A stretch of 64,000 bases of DNA from Oscillospiraceae bacterium (GTDB taxonomy: Bacteria; Bacillota; Clostridia; Oscillospirales; Ruminococcaceae). The translations under genes and the position numbers were made by a program. The notes under the pieces were generated by a model. That model had not been told where the DNA came from, searched no databases, and worked only from the letters and a program-made list of their open reading frames with translations. Positions 13,484-55,675 of the stretch are shown piece by piece. Location of the stretch: NCBI GenBank assembly GCA_015067025.1, contig SVNC01000004.1, positions 84,387 through 148,386 of the forward strand, given 5' to 3'. Each line of letters opens with the position of its first letter. The stretch's first letter is position 1.

Positions 13484-14062
13484 TTATACTAACTTTGTAC
13501 CAAGCTCGAAAGCCTTTTCGTTGATTTCAATAACCTTCTTAGGTACACATTCTTCTACAGCCTTTTTCCAAGCCGCTTCATCAAAGCCCTTTAATACCTT
13601 TGATAAAACACCCATAAGAACAACGTTTACTGCCTTTGCACTACCCGCTTCGTTAGCGGCGGAAAGTGCGTCAACTGCGATAAGATCAATACCCTTATCG
13701 GCAATCTTTTCGAGGAGTCCCTCGGGATACTGTGCCGCACCTGTGATAACAGGCATGGGGCTTATCTTCTGTGAGTTTGTGATAACTGTACCGCCCTTTT
13801 TGAGAGAGGAAAGCCATCTTGCAGCTTCAAGCTGTTCAAAGGATACGATGATATCAGCCTGACCCTTTTCGATAACAGGGCTGTATACCTTTTCACCATA
13901 CTTGATGTAGGTTACTACAGAACCGCCACGCTGGCTCATTCCGTGTACCTCACTTACCTTTACGTCATAGCCTGCAGAGCCTAAAACGTTACCTAATATA
14001 CGGCTGGCAAGCAGAGTACCCTGACCGCCAACGCCTACGATCATAATTGAATTTGTGTTCAT
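13484..14062 (-). CDS. iorB: Indolepyruvate ferredoxin oxidoreductase, beta subunit (IorB)
   Basis: The small subunit (192 residues) of the arylpyruvate:ferredoxin oxidoreductase, corresponding to the gamma domain of other 2-oxoacid oxidoreductases. The N-terminus SIMIVGVGGQGTLLASRILG is the hallmark, followed by EVHGMSQRGGSVV. Start ATG 14060-14062 follows GGGGGACAG; the frame continues upstream to 14092 but only into the iorA end. It lies 13 bp after iorA. With IorA it oxidises aryl 2-oxoacids to aryl-acyl-CoA with reduced ferredoxin, or runs in reverse to make aryl 2-oxoacids. Confidence 0.95.
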   Translation of the reverse strand: MNTNSIMIVGVGGQGTLLASRILGNVLGSAGYDVKVSEVHGMSQRGGSVVTYIKYGEKVYSPVIEKGQADIIVSFEQLEAARWLSSLKKGGTVITNSQKISPMPVITGAAQYPEGLLEKIADKGIDLIAVDALSAANEAGSAKAVNVVLMGVLSKVLKGFDEAAWKKAVEECVPKKVIEINEKAFELGTKLV

Positions 14063-14075
14063 ATTTCTGTCCCCC

Positions 14076-15809
14076 TTATTCTTCGATAGCACCGAACTTG
14101 CACATCTGGTTGCAAAGTCCGCAGCCTACGCAGAGTGTAGCGTCAATAGTTACACCGTTTTCGCCCCAGCATAATGCAGGACAGCCTATCTTCATACAAG
14201 CCTTGCAGTTCTTGCACTTGTCGGGATTAATTTTAAAGGGAGCTTTATGCTTTACAGTCTTGAGAAGTGCACAAGGACGGCGTGCGATAATTACAGAAGG
14301 TTCATCCTTTGCAAGCTCTTCCTTGATTACGCTTTCAGTTTCAGTAAGGTTATTGGGGTCAATAACTCTTACGCTGCTTATACCAACTGCCTTTGCAAGT
14401 GCTTCAAGATTAACTGCCGCCGCAGGGTCGCCGTAAATATTCATACCGTTTGCGGGGTTATTCTGATGTCCTGTCATACCTGTGATGCTGTTATCAAGGA
14501 TGAGGACTGTAGAATTACTTCTGTTGTATGCGATATTGATAAGACCTGTAACGCCGCTGTGGATAAAGGTGCTGTCACCGATAACCGCTACAGACTTGCC
14601 TTCAAACTCGCCCTTTCTACCCTTATTAAAGCCGTGCAGACCGCTTACAGACGCACCCATACATACTGTAGTATCAATAGCTGATAAAGGAGCGGCAGAG
14701 CCTAACGTATAGCAACCGATATCGCCGCTTAACATTACGCCAAGCTTCTTTAATATGTAGAATACACCTCTGTGGGGACATCCTGCGCAAAGTACGGGAG
14801 GACGAACGGGAATAGCCTCGTCAAGAACTGTAAATTCGTCAGTTTCGTTTAAGATAACCTGCTTTATCTTGCTCTGGAAATATTCGCCCTGGAGTGTAAA
14901 TAATTCCTTACCCTTTACTTCAATACCGTTCTTGCGGCAATGGGTTTCGATAACGTCGTCAAGCTCTTCGATAACGTATAAGGTCTTAACCTTAGCGGCA
15001 AATTCCTTGATAAGATTTACAGGCAGGGGATTTACCATACCAAGCTTTAAATAGCTTGCCTTGTCCCCTAAAGCTTCTTTAGCAAACTGGTAGCAGATAC
15101 CTGATGTGATAACACCGATTTCATCGCTGTTCATTTCAATAGTGTTGATACCTGAATTTTCTGCATATTCAGTAAGCTTTAAGGTTCTTTCTTCAACTAC
15201 AACGTGCTTTTTGATAGCATTTGCAGGAACCATTACGTACTTAGCGATATCCTTCTTATATTCGGGAAGAGCCTTTTCAACTCTGTCGCATTCTTCAACA
15301 GTAGACTGGGAATGGCTTACTCTTGTTGTAAGTCTTAAGATTACGGGAGTATCAAACTGCTCGGAGATCTCATAGGCTAGCTTTGTGTATTCCTTACATT
15401 CAGCAGAATCGGAGGGCTCTAACATAGGAACCTTTGCACCGATTGCATAGTGACGGGAATCCTGCTCATTCTGTGAGCTGTGCATACCCGGGTCGTCAGC
15501 AACCGCTAAAACAAAACCGCCGTTTACACCTGTGTAGGAGGCAGTGAATAAGGGGTCAGCCGCAACGTTTAAGCCTACGTGCTTCATAGCACAGAAGCTT
15601 CTTGCACCTGCAATGCTTGCACCGATCGCTACTTCGCAGGCTACCTTTTCATTAGGAGCCCATTCACAGTACATTTCTTCCGCATTGTATTTTGATGCGA
15701 ACTCTGTTATTTCGGTACTGGGTGTACCGGGATAGCTTGATACCACGCTGACGCCTGCTTCGTATAAGCCACGGGCTACAGCCTGGTTACCTAACATTAA
15801 TTTTGCCAT
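14076..15809 (-). CDS. iorA: Indolepyruvate ferredoxin oxidoreductase, alpha subunit (IorA)
   Basis: The large subunit (577 residues) carrying thiamine diphosphate and iron-sulfur clusters. The order is: pyrimidine-binding domain (LMLGNQAVARGLYEAG at the start), a transketolase-C-like middle, a TPP domain with CAGCPHRGVFYIL, GDIGCYTLG and GDSTFIHSG ... DNSITGMTG (metal and diphosphate binding), and a C-terminal ferredoxin domain with two cysteine groups, CKNCKACMKIGC and CVGCGLCNQMC. The start is ATG 15807-15809 with AAAGGAA upstream. It is first in the operon, driven by the promoter at 15864-15892. Co-transcription with aguAB is unusual and has no obvious biochemical reason. Confidence 0.96.
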   Translation of the reverse strand: MAKLMLGNQAVARGLYEAGVSVVSSYPGTPSTEITEFASKYNAEEMYCEWAPNEKVACEVAIGASIAGARSFCAMKHVGLNVAADPLFTASYTGVNGGFVLAVADDPGMHSSQNEQDSRHYAIGAKVPMLEPSDSAECKEYTKLAYEISEQFDTPVILRLTTRVSHSQSTVEECDRVEKALPEYKKDIAKYVMVPANAIKKHVVVEERTLKLTEYAENSGINTIEMNSDEIGVITSGICYQFAKEALGDKASYLKLGMVNPLPVNLIKEFAAKVKTLYVIEELDDVIETHCRKNGIEVKGKELFTLQGEYFQSKIKQVILNETDEFTVLDEAIPVRPPVLCAGCPHRGVFYILKKLGVMLSGDIGCYTLGSAAPLSAIDTTVCMGASVSGLHGFNKGRKGEFEGKSVAVIGDSTFIHSGVTGLINIAYNRSNSTVLILDNSITGMTGHQNNPANGMNIYGDPAAAVNLEALAKAVGISSVRVIDPNNLTETESVIKEELAKDEPSVIIARRPCALLKTVKHKAPFKINPDKCKNCKACMKIGCPALCWGENGVTIDATLCVGCGLCNQMCKFGAIEE

Positions 15810-15863
15810 AATAAAAATTCCTTTCGGTAAAAATTTACATAGTTCTTCATTATAGATAGTATC

Positions 15864-15892
15864 ATTATACACTATTTTTTGCCTGTTGTAAA
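15864..15892 (-). promoter_or_regulatory. Sigma-A promoter for the iorA-iorB-aguA-aguB operon
   Basis: On the minus strand TTTACA (15887-15892) and TATAAT (15864-15869) are 17 bases apart. MITE copy 2 begins only about 22 bp upstream of the -35 box. Confidence 0.8.
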
Positions 15893-24123: not shown

Positions 24124-24636
24124 ATGAAAGGAAAAAAGATTATTGCTGCGGCAGGAGTATCGGCTATGCTTGCCCTTACTTCCTGCAAGGAAAATATGAT
24201 AATGTCCCCTCCCGATCTTTCAGGAAACATCGAAATGAAAGGAACTGTATCCTGCGGTACATTAAAGGCAGAGGCAGAAATAAAGCGGACTGACGGAACC
24301 TGGACCATACTTTACACCGCCCCCGACAGCCTTTGCGGTATGGAGATAGTTACCGACGGTACGGAGTGCAAGGTAACCCACAGCGGTATCGCCTTTGATT
24401 ATAAGAATGAAGACGTACCCTTTATCACCGCAGTAGATTACATAACCGCAAGCATTGACAGTACGAAGGATGCCGCAAATATATCTCTGTCACAAAACGG
24501 AAACGGAACCACCCTTTCAGGCTCAGTCTTATCAAGCGGTTTTCAGATAGTACTTGACAAGGAACAGAATATTGTATCCTTGTCTGCAGGCGATTATAAA
24601 TTCACGGCGGTAAAAAATGATAAAGAGGAAAGCTAA
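24124..24636 (+). CDS. Small lipoprotein of unknown function
   Basis: A 170-residue protein with a lysine-rich start, a hydrophobic stretch and the lipobox LTSC (Cys at about residue 21), so it should be lipid-anchored outside the cell. The mature part is rich in beta-forming residues (GNIEMKGTVSCGTLKAEAEI, LSGSVLSSGFQIVL) and resembles LolA/LppX-like or copper-amine-oxidase-like beta proteins only in a general way. I do not recognise a family. It overlaps the start of the downstream membrane protein gene by 20 bases, so the two are likely coupled. GAAAGG upstream is shared with the terminator hairpin. Confidence 0.7.
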   Translation: MKGKKIIAAAGVSAMLALTSCKENMIMSPPDLSGNIEMKGTVSCGTLKAEAEIKRTDGTWTILYTAPDSLCGMEIVTDGTECKVTHSGIAFDYKNEDVPFITAVDYITASIDSTKDAANISLSQNGNGTTLSGSVLSSGFQIVLDKEQNIVSLSAGDYKFTAVKNDKEES

Positions 24637-25012
24637 GTATCCCGTTTTAAGAAAACTGAAGCCCTTTATAAAGGGTACTGTGGCAGGATTTATCGTAACC
24701 CTTTTGATGACGCTCCTTTTTTCCTTTGTCATATGTGCTTTAAGTGTAGATGAAAGTATGTATGCTATCATTGCTCTGATTGCAACGGGAGTCGGTTGCT
24801 ATGTGGACGGTATACTGATAGGCGGCGGCAAAGGCAGAAACGGATTTTTCTGGGGTGCAGTCGGCGGAATCATATTCTTTATAATATACGCCGCAGGAGC
24901 TGTAATTATCGGGAATACTGACGGCAGTCAGCTTATAGCAAAGCTTCTTTGCTGTGTTATCTGTTCTATGGCAGGGGGAATAACAGGGGTCAATATTGAG
25001 CTTAATAATTAG
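24617..25012 (+). CDS. TIGR04086-like four-helix membrane protein
   Basis: A 131-residue membrane protein with four predicted transmembrane helices (about residues 16-40, 46-64, 75-95 and 103-125). The pattern KGTVAGFIVTLLMTLLFS ... VDGILIGGGKGRNGFFWGAVGGI resembles the TIGR04086/DUF3792 family, common in Clostridia and of unknown function. The start ATG 24617 lies inside the preceding lipoprotein gene, in another frame. It ends at 25012, just before a copy of the dispersed two-hairpin repeat. Confidence 0.75.
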   Translation: MIKRKAKYPVLRKLKPFIKGTVAGFIVTLLMTLLFSFVICALSVDESMYAIIALIATGVGCYVDGILIGGGKGRNGFFWGAVGGIIFFIIYAAGAVIIGNTDGSQLIAKLLCCVICSMAGGITGVNIELNN

Positions 25013-25178: not shown

Positions 25179-27515
25179 TTATTCAGATTTCTTTGCGTCC
25201 TGCTCACGGATCTCGCTTCTTCTGATCTTTCCGCTGCCTACAGTCTTGGGCAGGCTGTCACGGAATTCGATAACTCTCGGATACTTATAAGGAGCCGTCT
25301 GATTCTTAACGTAAGTCTGGATCTCCTTTTTAAGCTCGTCGCTGGGTTCTGTACCCTTTGTAAGAACGATGGTAGCCTTTACGAGCTGACCTCTTATCTC
25401 ATCAGGAACACCTGTAACCGCACATTCAAGAACGTAAGGAAGCTCCATGATAACACTTTCGATTTCGAAAGGTCCGATGCGGTAGCCTGATGACTTGATA
25501 AGGTCGTCAACTCTACCGATGTACCAGTAGTAACCGTCTTCGTCCATACGGGCAGTATCACCTGTGTGGTACCAGCCGTCGTGCCATGCTTCCTTTGTGC
25601 TTTCTTCATTATTATAATAGCTCATAAACAGACCGCAAGGTTTCTTGCCGTTTGTTCTGATGCAGATCTCACCTGTTTCGCCATCTCCTGCCTCTGTACC
25701 GTCGGCATTAAGGATATGCACGTCATAGAGAGGATTGGGCTTGCCCATACTGCCGGGCTTTGGAGTCATACCAACGAAGTTTGCAACGGAAAGGGTGGTT
25801 TCCGTCTGACCGAAACCTTCCATAAGAGAGATGCCTGTAGCCTTCTTAAACTGGTGGAATACTTCAGGGTTAAGAGCCTCACCTGCTATAGTTGCATACT
25901 TAAGACTTGAAAGATCGTACTTTGACAGATCCTCCTTTATAAAGAAGCGGTACATTGTAGGGGGTGCACAGAAGGTTGTGATGTTGTACTTTGCAAACAT
26001 CGGCAGGATATCTTCTGCATGGAAGCGTTCAAAGTCGTAAACGAATACGGCAGTTTCGCACATCCACTGACCGTAGAGCTTACCCCAGAGTGCTTTGCCC
26101 CAGCCGGTATCGGAGATGGTGAAGTGGATACCGTTAGGGTCTACATTGTGCCAGTATCTTGCTGTCGTATAATGACCTAAAGGATACTTAAAGTCGTGCA
26201 TTGCGATCTTGGGATAACCTGTTGTACCTGACGTAAAGAACATCAGCATAGGGTCGCTGCCGCAAGCAGTATTTTCCGTTCTGGGGAACTTGCCGCTGTA
26301 AGAAGGAAGCTCTTCGTCAAAATCGTTCCAACCATCTCTGCTGCCGCCTACTAATATCTTTGTCTTAAGGGACTTGCAGTTAGGTGCTGCTAAATCTATT
26401 TCATCTGCTACTGCGCCATCAGCAGTACATACAACTGCGGATATTTCAGCAGCGTCAAAGCGGTATTCAAAGTCGTGCTTTACAAGCTGGTTTGACGCAG
26501 GGATAACCACAGCACCCAATCTGTGCAGTGCAAGGATAGAGAACCAGAACTGATAGTGTCTTTTCAATACCAGCATCACCTTGTCGCCCTTCTTTATGCC
26601 AAGGGACTTGAAGTAATTTGCTGTCTGGCAGGAATACTTCATTATATCCTTAAAGGTAAACTTACGCTCGCTCTTATCGTCAGCCACGTGGATCATAGCC
26701 ACCTTATCGGGACACTTTTCCGCAAGAGCGTCAACGATATCATAAGCGAAGTTGAAGCTTTCTTCATTATGGAACTTAACGCCTGATAAAAGTCCCTGCT
26801 CGTCTGTTTCGCAGGATACGAATTTATCTGCAACGGGATGAGATATACCGGCCTTGTAGAAGTTGGAGTGGGTGTACTTTCTCACCTGCTCGTGATATTC
26901 CACAGTCTGCTCACCGTCACGGGGTGCCATAACGAAAGCGTAGATCTCACAGTCCTCACCGCCCAGTGCTATTTCATCGTGGGGCATTGAGCTGTCGTAG
27001 TAGATGCAATCGCCCTCGTGAAGTGTTTCCACGTGAGTACCGATTATCATACGTAAAGTACCCTTGACAACGATATCCATTTCCTGACCTGCGTGACTTG
27101 CAAGGTGACGGGGAGAGCTTAAAGCCTCCTCGGAATAAGGAATAACAACGTGGAAGGGTTCTGTTATCCTATCCTTGAATTTATATGCAAGGTGATTATA
27201 TTCAAAGCCTGCTCTTCTTACGATAGGCTTACCCTTGCCTCTTCTTGTAACTGTGTAGCCTGTAAGCTCAGGGCTGTCGCCACCCATAAGCTCGGCAATG
27301 TCAACACCGAATACGCCTGCACATTTGTGGATAAAGGTGAAGCTAAAGTCGGTCTCACCCTTTTCCATCTTCTTGTATTCTTCGACAGAAAGACCTGTCT
27401 TTGCCGCCATAGTTGTGGCGGAAATGCCCATATCCTCACGAAGAGTACGGATACGCTGTGCAACCTCACGGATACTCTGTTCGGTCGCATTCATAACATT
27501 GTTGTTTTCTGACAT
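25179..27515 (-). CDS. XRE-type HTH + cupin + acyl-CoA synthetase fusion protein
   Basis: A 778-residue protein with three parts. Residues 1-75 form an XRE/Cro HTH (VAQRIRTLREDMGISATTMAAKTGLSVEEYKKMEKG). Residues about 110-205 form a cupin barrel (SHAGQEMDIVVKGTLRMIIG, HEGDCIYYDSSMPHDEIAL). From about 240 to the end lies an ANL-family AMP-forming acyl-CoA synthetase of the medium-chain type: P-loop TSGTTGYPK (about 428), GEALNPE, GFGQTETT, WYHTGD, and the C-terminal catalytic lysine in VGSGKIRRSEI. AAAGGAG precedes the ATG. HTH-cupin proteins normally stand alone as regulators; here the sensor and enzyme are one chain. A T-box leader lies upstream. Acyl substrate unknown. Confidence 0.92.
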   Translation of the reverse strand: MSENNNVMNATEQSIREVAQRIRTLREDMGISATTMAAKTGLSVEEYKKMEKGETDFSFTFIHKCAGVFGVDIAELMGGDSPELTGYTVTRRGKGKPIVRRAGFEYNHLAYKFKDRITEPFHVVIPYSEEALSSPRHLASHAGQEMDIVVKGTLRMIIGTHVETLHEGDCIYYDSSMPHDEIALGGEDCEIYAFVMAPRDGEQTVEYHEQVRKYTHSNFYKAGISHPVADKFVSCETDEQGLLSGVKFHNEESFNFAYDIVDALAEKCPDKVAMIHVADDKSERKFTFKDIMKYSCQTANYFKSLGIKKGDKVMLVLKRHYQFWFSILALHRLGAVVIPASNQLVKHDFEYRFDAAEISAVVCTADGAVADEIDLAAPNCKSLKTKILVGGSRDGWNDFDEELPSYSGKFPRTENTACGSDPMLMFFTSGTTGYPKIAMHDFKYPLGHYTTARYWHNVDPNGIHFTISDTGWGKALWGKLYGQWMCETAVFVYDFERFHAEDILPMFAKYNITTFCAPPTMYRFFIKEDLSKYDLSSLKYATIAGEALNPEVFHQFKKATGISLMEGFGQTETTLSVANFVGMTPKPGSMGKPNPLYDVHILNADGTEAGDGETGEICIRTNGKKPCGLFMSYYNNEESTKEAWHDGWYHTGDTARMDEDGYYWYIGRVDDLIKSSGYRIGPFEIESVIMELPYVLECAVTGVPDEIRGQLVKATIVLTKGTEPSDELKKEIQTYVKNQTAPYKYPRVIEFRDSLPKTVGSGKIRRSEIREQDAKKSE

Positions 27516-27565
27516 TGTGTTTTACTCCTTTCGTTGTTGTGGGGCATAGGCTGTATAAATAAAAA

Positions 27566-27835
27566 AACCCGCCCCAAAGTGTTTTACTTTGAGACGAGAT
27601 TAAACCCGCGGTACCACTCAAATTGCGTTTTGCTATTGCTCAACGCCACTTCAGACTCGCCACTTACGGTACAAGCCCTATGCATTAACGCAGCCTCACG
27701 AGAACGCTTACTGAAATTTCAGCATTCCAACTCAGAAGGGATGCACTCTGCTTGCCGTTACTGTCTCGCACCGCCCGACAGCTCTCTGAAAACATCTCAA
27801 TACAGAATGTGTGTCTTCGTCATCGTTTTTTTGAT
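27566..27835 (-). promoter_or_regulatory. T-box riboswitch controlling the XRE-cupin-acyl-CoA synthetase gene
   Basis: On the minus strand the leader has the T-box core GAGTGGTACCGCGGG (about 27605-27619), the AGAGAG bulge and GGCGGTGCGA-type distal loop of Stem I (about 27760-27785), a K-turn-like GATGACGAAG near the 5' end, and a terminator: CTCGTCTCAAAGT pairs with ACTTTGGGGCGGG and is followed by seven T. The T-box bulge is TGGT, which would pair with a tRNA with discriminator base A. By hand-folding, the specifier region is GTGCATCCCTTC; the codon is not settled (ATC Ile, GCA Ala or TCC Ser). Confidence 0.88.
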
Positions 27836-27841
27836 ATTGCA

Positions 27842-27870
27842 ATTATACACCCATGTTTTTTATTTGTCAA
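27842..27870 (-). promoter_or_regulatory. Consensus sigma-A promoter of the T-box transcript
   Basis: TTGACA (27865-27870) and TATAAT (27842-27847) on the minus strand with a 17-base spacer, a perfect match to consensus. Strong constitutive initiation fits control by attenuation in the leader. Confidence 0.9.
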
Positions 27871-55548: not shown

Positions 55549-55675
55549 AAATCCGTGATTATGAGTGTAAACTTACTGCGGCACAGGTCGTAACTGCTTA
55601 ATGCTGCTCGGTTCCCCGCCTGACATGGTTCACAGGACTTCCTTGCACAGGGCTTACACCCATAATCACGGGCTT
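55549..55675 (-). ncRNA. ffs: Signal recognition particle RNA (small, 4.5S type)
   Basis: About 125 nt on the minus strand. The ends pair: CCCGTGATTATGGGTGTAA near the 5' end with TTACACTCATAATCACGG near the 3' end. The conserved domain reads GAACCATGTCAGG, then the hairpin CGG-GGAA-CCG with its GGAA tetraloop, and AGCAGCATTAAGCAG. This is the Ffh-binding symmetric loop. No Alu domain can fit, so it is the short form. It is located upstream of dnaX, as in Bacillus. Promoter at 55695-55723. Confidence 0.93.

Follow-up and report, generated by a model that had tools for sequence, protein, structure and literature searches.

Why would a T-box precede an acyl-coenzyme A (acyl-CoA) synthetase gene? 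The question is raised by positions 25179 to 27870 of a 64,000-nucleotide stretch of DNA (the window: positions 84,387 to 148,386 of contig SVNC01000004.1, assembly GCA_015067025.1, from an Oscillospiraceae bacterium, probably a gut inhabitant with Ruminococcus among its relatives), where a leader RNA of this kind precedes a single gene encoding a helix-turn-helix (HTH) domain, a cupin domain and an acyl-CoA synthetase in one protein. We consider it quite likely that this T-box, with the isoleucine codon AUC as specifier, controls a predicted 2-methylbutyrate ligase that feeds isoleucine synthesis by way of an enzyme of the ketoisovalerate ferredoxin oxidoreductase (VOR) type and an aminotransferase. 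Features with window coordinates are on the reverse strand unless stated otherwise; L and G numbers denote the loci and genomes compared, and f numbers families.

The leader RNA

The leader upstream of the fusion gene is a genuine T-box. The Rfam model RF00230 covers positions 27832 to 27587 over its full length (model positions 1-219) with 112.9 bits (cmscan; E-value 3.7e-24, gathering threshold 93), and a search of the organism's own genome finds the same leader at an E-value of 3.2e-26. A preliminary description of this DNA had called a full T-box and named the covariance search as the way to overturn that call; the call stands. The elements that it had picked out can all be seen in the sequence: a consensus promoter (27842..27870) with TTGACA at -35 (27865-27870), a 17-nucleotide spacer and TATAAT at -10 (27842-27847); a Stem I that contains AGAGAG and GGUG; the core GAGTGGTACCGCGGG, whose UGGU bulge (27613..27616) is complementary, by the usual pairing rule, to the ACCA end of a tRNA with discriminator A; and an intrinsic terminator (27568..27598) with a 13-bp stem followed by a U run. 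Because CUCGUCUCAAA is used by both the terminator and the antiterminator that carries the UGGN bulge, the two structures are mutually exclusive. The terminator fold has an energy of -18.3 kcal/mol, with a z score of -3.08 against shuffled sequences.

The specifier codon

Which amino acid would such a leader report? The specifier is read as AUC (27740..27742) from the Rfam alignment column, a specifier script, the internal loop of the minimum free energy (MFE) structure, and homologs. A single base (C, 27739) separates AUC from CUUC (27735-27738), which forms a lower stem with GAAG (27815-27818). The MFE structure has the same lower stem and an internal loop ACACA/CAUCC, of which CAUCC is the 3' side; this is support for AUC and not proof, the whole Stem I piece having a z score of 0.67. 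A UGGU bulge demands a tRNA with discriminator A, and among the codons within the loop (CAU, AUC and UCC) only isoleucine matches it, given what we take to be the discriminator bases, so that AUC is favored over the other two. The preliminary description had already expected discriminator A and argued against serine, with which an isoleucine specifier agrees.

The same alignment columns can be compared with gene content elsewhere in the genome, where they match the downstream gene in eight of nine other leaders (L002-L010): aroF (UUC), leuA (CUC), a trpB-like gene (UGG), aspS-gatCAB (AAC), a second aroF (UAC), cysE-cysS (UGC), proS (CCC) and the ilvA operon (AUC), with pheST one base off. Searches identified ilvA and leuA by name and the trpB-like gene only as PALP; the other genes were named by eye. 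Among own-genome leaders whose gene is known, the script read seven and agreed with five (aroF, leuA, trpB-like, proS, ilvA); it misread the second aroF (UAC in the alignment) and pheST (one base off), and its motif was unmatched in three leaders (L005, L007, L012). Among leaders of homologous fusions (see below), AUC is constant in 74 script calls, although the position that follows is variable (37 A, 36 C, 1 G), and the lower stem varies with pairing kept (66 GAAG, 8 GAGG).

T-boxes of the same genome and of homologous genes

The organism's own genome has 12 RF00230 matches, two of which precede acyl-CoA synthetases, one with an isoleucine and one with a leucine specifier. The latter (CUC) stands before an 842-residue protein joining a xylose-isomerase-like TIM barrel to an acyl-CoA synthetase. 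A second CUC T-box precedes ridA-leuA-leuC-leuD-leuB (the last three by eye), an AUC T-box precedes an ilvA-ilvB-ilvN-ilvC-ilvD run (ilvA by search, IlvC confirmed, the rest by eye), and the ileS leader is AUC by eye. As separate observations on this genome, an AAC (Asn) T-box lies ahead of aspS-gatC-gatA-gatB by eye (L019:5623-10617), which fits Asn-tRNA made by transamidation, and each of two 3-deoxy-D-arabino-heptulosonate 7-phosphate synthase genes, by eye (L002, L006), has a T-box of its own, UUC (Phe) in one case and UAC (Tyr) in the other.

Fusion homologs were drawn from 149 relatives and from named genomes (80 loci, of which six are titled Ruminococcus flavefaciens and the rest are mostly from rumen and gut Clostridia). 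Eleven of the 80 named loci gave no row (L160, L171, L175, L176, L178, L181, L187, L198, L203, L213, L220), the gene being cut, split or missed at the open reading frame (ORF) step, or the locus a repeat (L178, L203). With near-copies removed, there are 109 distinct fusions, of which the relatives supply 37 and the named genomes 72. Where the preliminary description had suggested looking for T-boxes with the same specifier on homologous fusions, AUC is found on 78 of the 109 and a valine codon on eight (seven GUA, one GUC); on 21 no T-box was found, and two are contig-cut. The script's own tally is 74 Ile, 8 Val, 2 other, 23 without motif and 2 cut, to which two Ile leaders were added by eye (L040, L182) and two by Rfam alignment (L045, L048). 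Among the 21, L047 is contig-cut and the second copy in L092 lies in tandem behind a T-box-bearing copy; Rfam scans of L038, L041, L042 and L044 (as L124-L127), the only ones of the 21 so scanned, found no T-box. Two rows are uncounted, L116 (split genes, with a motif about 600 bases upstream that lacks a specifier) and L066 (a weak motif). An extra fusion copy in G130, outside the 109, has a Val leader, and in L188 GUA has changed to GUC, valine being kept. When ten genomes were searched separately with RF00230, matches fell at the same sites (for example three in each of the G131 and G111 clusters).

In a tree of the synthetase domain the leader labels cluster (nine changes, against a shuffled mean of 27.2). 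The Val leaders do not form one clade in this tree (three changes), so no single origin is claimed for them. Leaders of the TIM-barrel synthetase are CUC in 20 of 30 loci (L052-L081; 18 by script, two by Rfam), as they are in all seven of the clusters among L089-L098 in which a LeuA-like gene precedes it. In the tree a clade of fusions with no detected T-box includes L161, L163, L166, L173, L177, L180, L190, L193 and L206, one of them R. flavefaciens ND2009, and in several of its members the leader is short and contains an AAAGGAG-AGGCTT-like stretch ahead of the start; other R. flavefaciens records (L150, L151, L152, L156) have an Ile leader on a copy from a different clade.

The fusion protein and its predicted substrate

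The gene behind the leader (25179..27515) encodes 778 residues, and both the ORF and its Pfam domains bear out the preliminary description of it as the sole gene there, an HTH-cupin-acyl-CoA synthetase. The ORF listing has no synthetase gene between leader and fusion gene, an unrelated short one being the other arrangement that the preliminary description had named as fatal to its account. The transcription unit is taken to be one gene because the long ORF past the fusion stop (24617-25012) is on the opposite strand. From the N-terminus the domains are HTH_3 (PF01381, residues 22-76, 27288..27452, 35.2 bits), Cupin_2 (PF07883, residues 131-193, 26937..27125, 39 bits), AMP-binding (PF00501, residues 265-633, 25617..26723, 209 bits) and AMP-binding_C (PF13193, residues 684-758, 25242..25466, 73 bits). 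H141, E145 and H179 of the cupin part are invariant in all 13 aligned homologs. Profile and fold searches liken the N-terminal 235 residues to HppE and other HTH-cupin proteins (1y9q, 1zz6); unlike the case of HppE, no phosphonate context was seen around the fusion. A structure model of the HTH-cupin part (predicted local distance difference test score, pLDDT, 73.7; predicted template modeling score, pTM, 0.50; root-mean-square deviation about 15 over both domains) gives fold-level hints only; this part may act as a sensor, bind DNA or regulate the ligase. A split version exists in the same genome, where an HTH-cupin-like gene (195 residues) adjoins a separate acyl-CoA synthetase gene (552 residues; L088:6542-8826), with no RF00230 match at that locus.

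The fusion is predicted, from its nearest relatives, to be a 2-methylbutyrate-activating CoA ligase. Among solved structures the closest in sequence is 3etc (669 bits, residues 245-774), the MacsMa enzyme of Methanosarcina acetivorans, whose preferred substrate is given as 2-methylbutyrate in a passage of PMC10455477; MacsMa resembles the synthetase part, but is archaeal, and the HTH-cupin part lies outside the match. The top NCBIfam model is MbcS (NF047394), at 447.8 bits and thus under its curated cut-off of 850, which makes the fusion a relative of MbcS and not an assigned equivalog. MbcS of Staphylococcus aureus, the best NCBIfam relative, has 2-methylbutyrate and isobutyrate as substrates and acts poorly on isovalerate (PMC10026030); there it feeds fatty acids, in contrast to the role suggested here. 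Such a substrate range fits an arrangement in which one family would serve isoleucine and valine and another, the TIM-barrel fusion, leucine. Of the acids put forward in the preliminary description, the branched-chain ones are retained and narrowed to the precursor of isoleucine. The aryl acids (phenylacetate, indoleacetate) are set aside, no Phe or Trp specifier having been called ahead of these synthetases.

Gene clusters and de novo synthesis

VOR-type subunits were detected by tblastn in nine of 110 loci, and in eight of these they lie beside the fusion (L089, L091, L092, L093, L095, L188, L208, L218), seven having a branched-chain aminotransferase as well; in the ninth, L122, VOR adjoins a split HTH-cupin and synthetase pair. 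The fullest order is that of L089: Ile T-box, first fusion, Val T-box, second fusion, P-loop protein, VOR alpha, beta and gamma, IlvE, Leu T-box, LeuA-like protein and TIM-barrel synthetase. The L089 aminotransferase scores above the ilvE_II cut-off (410 against 250). A VOR is present in the organism's own genome too, its alpha subunit scoring above the VorB cut-off (NF005507; 538 against 399 bits) and its beta and gamma subunits matching related models under their cut-offs; close VorA homologs occur in 28 of the 29 fusion genomes searched. Two further proteins of these clusters may be mentioned: a P-loop MinD/ParA-like protein beside VOR genes both in this genome (L100:9450-10112) and in the clusters (L089:12359-13033), and a LeuA-like protein of 460 residues (L089:17004-18386, with homologs) between the Leu T-box and the TIM-barrel synthetase, which is below all LeuA cut-offs.

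Could the salvage route take the place of de novo synthesis? At order level, 19 of the 20 genomes that carry the fusion lack IlvC (PF01450), compared with 14 of the 39 that do not carry it (Fisher p 1.4e-5, a guide only, as the genomes are related); the fusion list came from the relatives search, and three of the 20 fusion genomes are less than 90% complete. The contrast also appears within families: in f3, f19, f20, f21 and f24 fusion carriers lack IlvC and non-carriers have it.

Proposed route and alternatives

How might these pieces work together? Uncharged tRNA-Ile would pair with AUC, and its ACCA end with the UGGU bulge; the pairing would stabilize the antiterminator, block the terminator and allow the ligase gene to be read. 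The ligase would make 2-methylbutyryl-CoA from 2-methylbutyrate, a VOR-type ferredoxin oxidoreductase would carboxylate this to 3-methyl-2-oxovalerate, and an aminotransferase would convert the latter to isoleucine, so that a cell short of isoleucine would rebuild it from a waste acid. In the same genome the TIM-barrel synthetase behind the Leu T-box (CUC) would likely lead from isovalerate to leucine, and in relatives a second HTH-cupin-synthetase behind a Val T-box (GUA or GUC) would likely lead from isobutyrate to valine. Beyond this one locus, it is probable that gut and rumen Clostridia have a three-part system with one T-box-controlled ligase per acid (2-methylbutyrate for Ile, isobutyrate for Val, isovalerate for Leu) and one VOR and one IlvE, which has replaced the de novo pathway in many lineages. 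The preliminary description had suggested that the ligase supplies an amino-acid precursor for reductive carboxylation; the AUC specifier and the seven loci with both VOR and IlvE are what such a function would predict.

The 2-methylbutyryl-CoA may be common to two fates, and the synthetase could instead feed branched-chain fatty acids, with 2-methylbutyryl-CoA as primer of the anteiso series and the Ile T-box reporting a shortage of the primer's source. MbcS does so in S. aureus (PMC10026030), but seven loci group fusions with VOR and a branched-chain aminotransferase, Leu and Val T-boxes precede other enzymes, and all but one of the 20 fusion genomes at order level lack IlvC, which together render the fatty-acid function unlikely. 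The same genes could also run in the oxidative direction, from branched-chain amino acids to acids with gain of ATP, the ligase working in reverse or scavenging. VOR enzymes are reversible and their oxidative use is common; a T-box, however, turns on when an amino acid is scarce, which suits synthesis, and the frequent lack of IlvC in the order-level fusion genomes speaks against breakdown as well, so that we regard this direction as very unlikely. Finally, the leader may answer to a different amino acid if the specifier is read in a shifted frame, as Ala (GCA), Cys (UGC), His (CAU) or Ser (UCC), and a non-canonical specifier loop and a pheST leader that is one base off under the same rule in the same genome would allow for this. 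Against it, the upper helix in the MFE structure overlaps GCA and UGC, AUC is fixed beside a variable base and a lower stem that covaries with pairing kept, UGGU suits discriminator A, and the ilvA operon leader has the same AUC reading; the shifted specifiers are rejected on these grounds, and response to another amino acid is extremely unlikely.

Isoleucine synthesis from 2-methylbutyrate under T-box control thus remains the preferred explanation, and a number of observations weigh against it. At the level of the RNA, the antiterminator piece (-8.3 kcal/mol; z score -1.04, 31 of 200 shuffles) and the Stem I piece (z score 0.67, 152 of 200) are not beyond shuffles, so that the case for a T-box rests on the covariance score. 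Nor is there a loop E motif (AGUA/GAA) in the specifier loop, which has ACACA on its 5' side and CAUCC on its 3' side; the motif is a common T-box feature, although the Rfam score does not demand it. No tRNA-Ile gene was found among the 25 tRNA loci examined, where tRNA-Leu(GAG) and tRNA-Val(UAC) are present. Among homologs, 21 of 109 fusions have no detected T-box, 15 of them in the one clade that includes R. flavefaciens ND2009, and no T-box was found in 10 of the 30 TIM-barrel synthetase loci.

At the level of the pathway, VOR lies beside the fusion in only eight of 110 loci, and the organism's own VOR genes are on another contig, unlinked to the fusion and with no RF00230 match. In G099, G100, G113 and G122 another synthetase paralog, either split or unfused, lies within about 2 kb of VorA, and VOR may therefore serve other acids besides that of the fusion. 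The pattern of IlvC is also uneven: in f10, f16 and f25 it is absent from some or all of the genomes without the fusion, f15 shows the opposite pattern, and nine of all 29 fusion genomes searched (the organism's own genus included) have it. The organism's own genome is among those with IlvC, together with the Ile T-box on the ilvA-ilvB-ilvN-ilvC-ilvD run, so the salvage route would be non-essential, or an extra, there.

Relation to known systems

With other RF00230 T-boxes the leader has in common the covariance score, Stem I, the UGGN bulge, the antiterminator and terminator, and a specifier codon; it differs in serving an acyl-CoA synthetase and in lacking the AGUA/GAA motif. Two T-box surveys were searched in their main texts, without the supplementary tables: PMC2494555 contains neither acyl nor CoA as a term, and PMC3766115 neither acyl-CoA nor CoA ligase. 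No T-box report with acyl-CoA synthetase, 2-methylbutyrate, AMP-binding, ketoisovalerate oxidoreductase or CoA ligase is among the top matches listed, in a search whose scope mostly excluded subscription journals.

The metabolic half of the proposal has a long history. Branched volatile fatty acids were named as growth factors of ruminococci in 1962 (in a title cited in PMC7356843), and a passage of the same article describes 2-methylbutyrate as precursor of Ile, isobutyrate of Val and isovalerate of Leu in rumen physiology. These are the three acid and amino-acid pairs predicted for the ligases, and the carboxylation route of rumen bacteria is, as the preliminary description had it, known from physiology. 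The reverse reaction, by which branched acids would yield amino acids, is described in a 2020 paper as "not proven yet" (PMC7709123), and none of the papers listed in the literature search names genes for it in ruminococci, judged by title or start of abstract. T-boxes and the carboxylation route are each known; within the literature reached, their pairing is unreported. If the proposal is true, it would give a gene basis for the old rumen growth-factor need for branched acids. The leader codon would name the end product of the ligase, making enzyme substrates predictable from sequence and open to direct test, and it should be possible to predict which gut bacteria rely on their neighbors for branched acids.

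Other features of the window

Genes for an indolepyruvate ferredoxin oxidoreductase, iorB and iorA, lie at 13484-15872, about 9 kb from the fusion. The alpha subunit IorA scores 723 bits against the TIGR03336 cut-off of 651, and the enzyme could serve aryl acids; it is not tied to the main finding. A bacterial small signal recognition particle RNA (RF00169, 60.2 bits) is located at 55562-55659.

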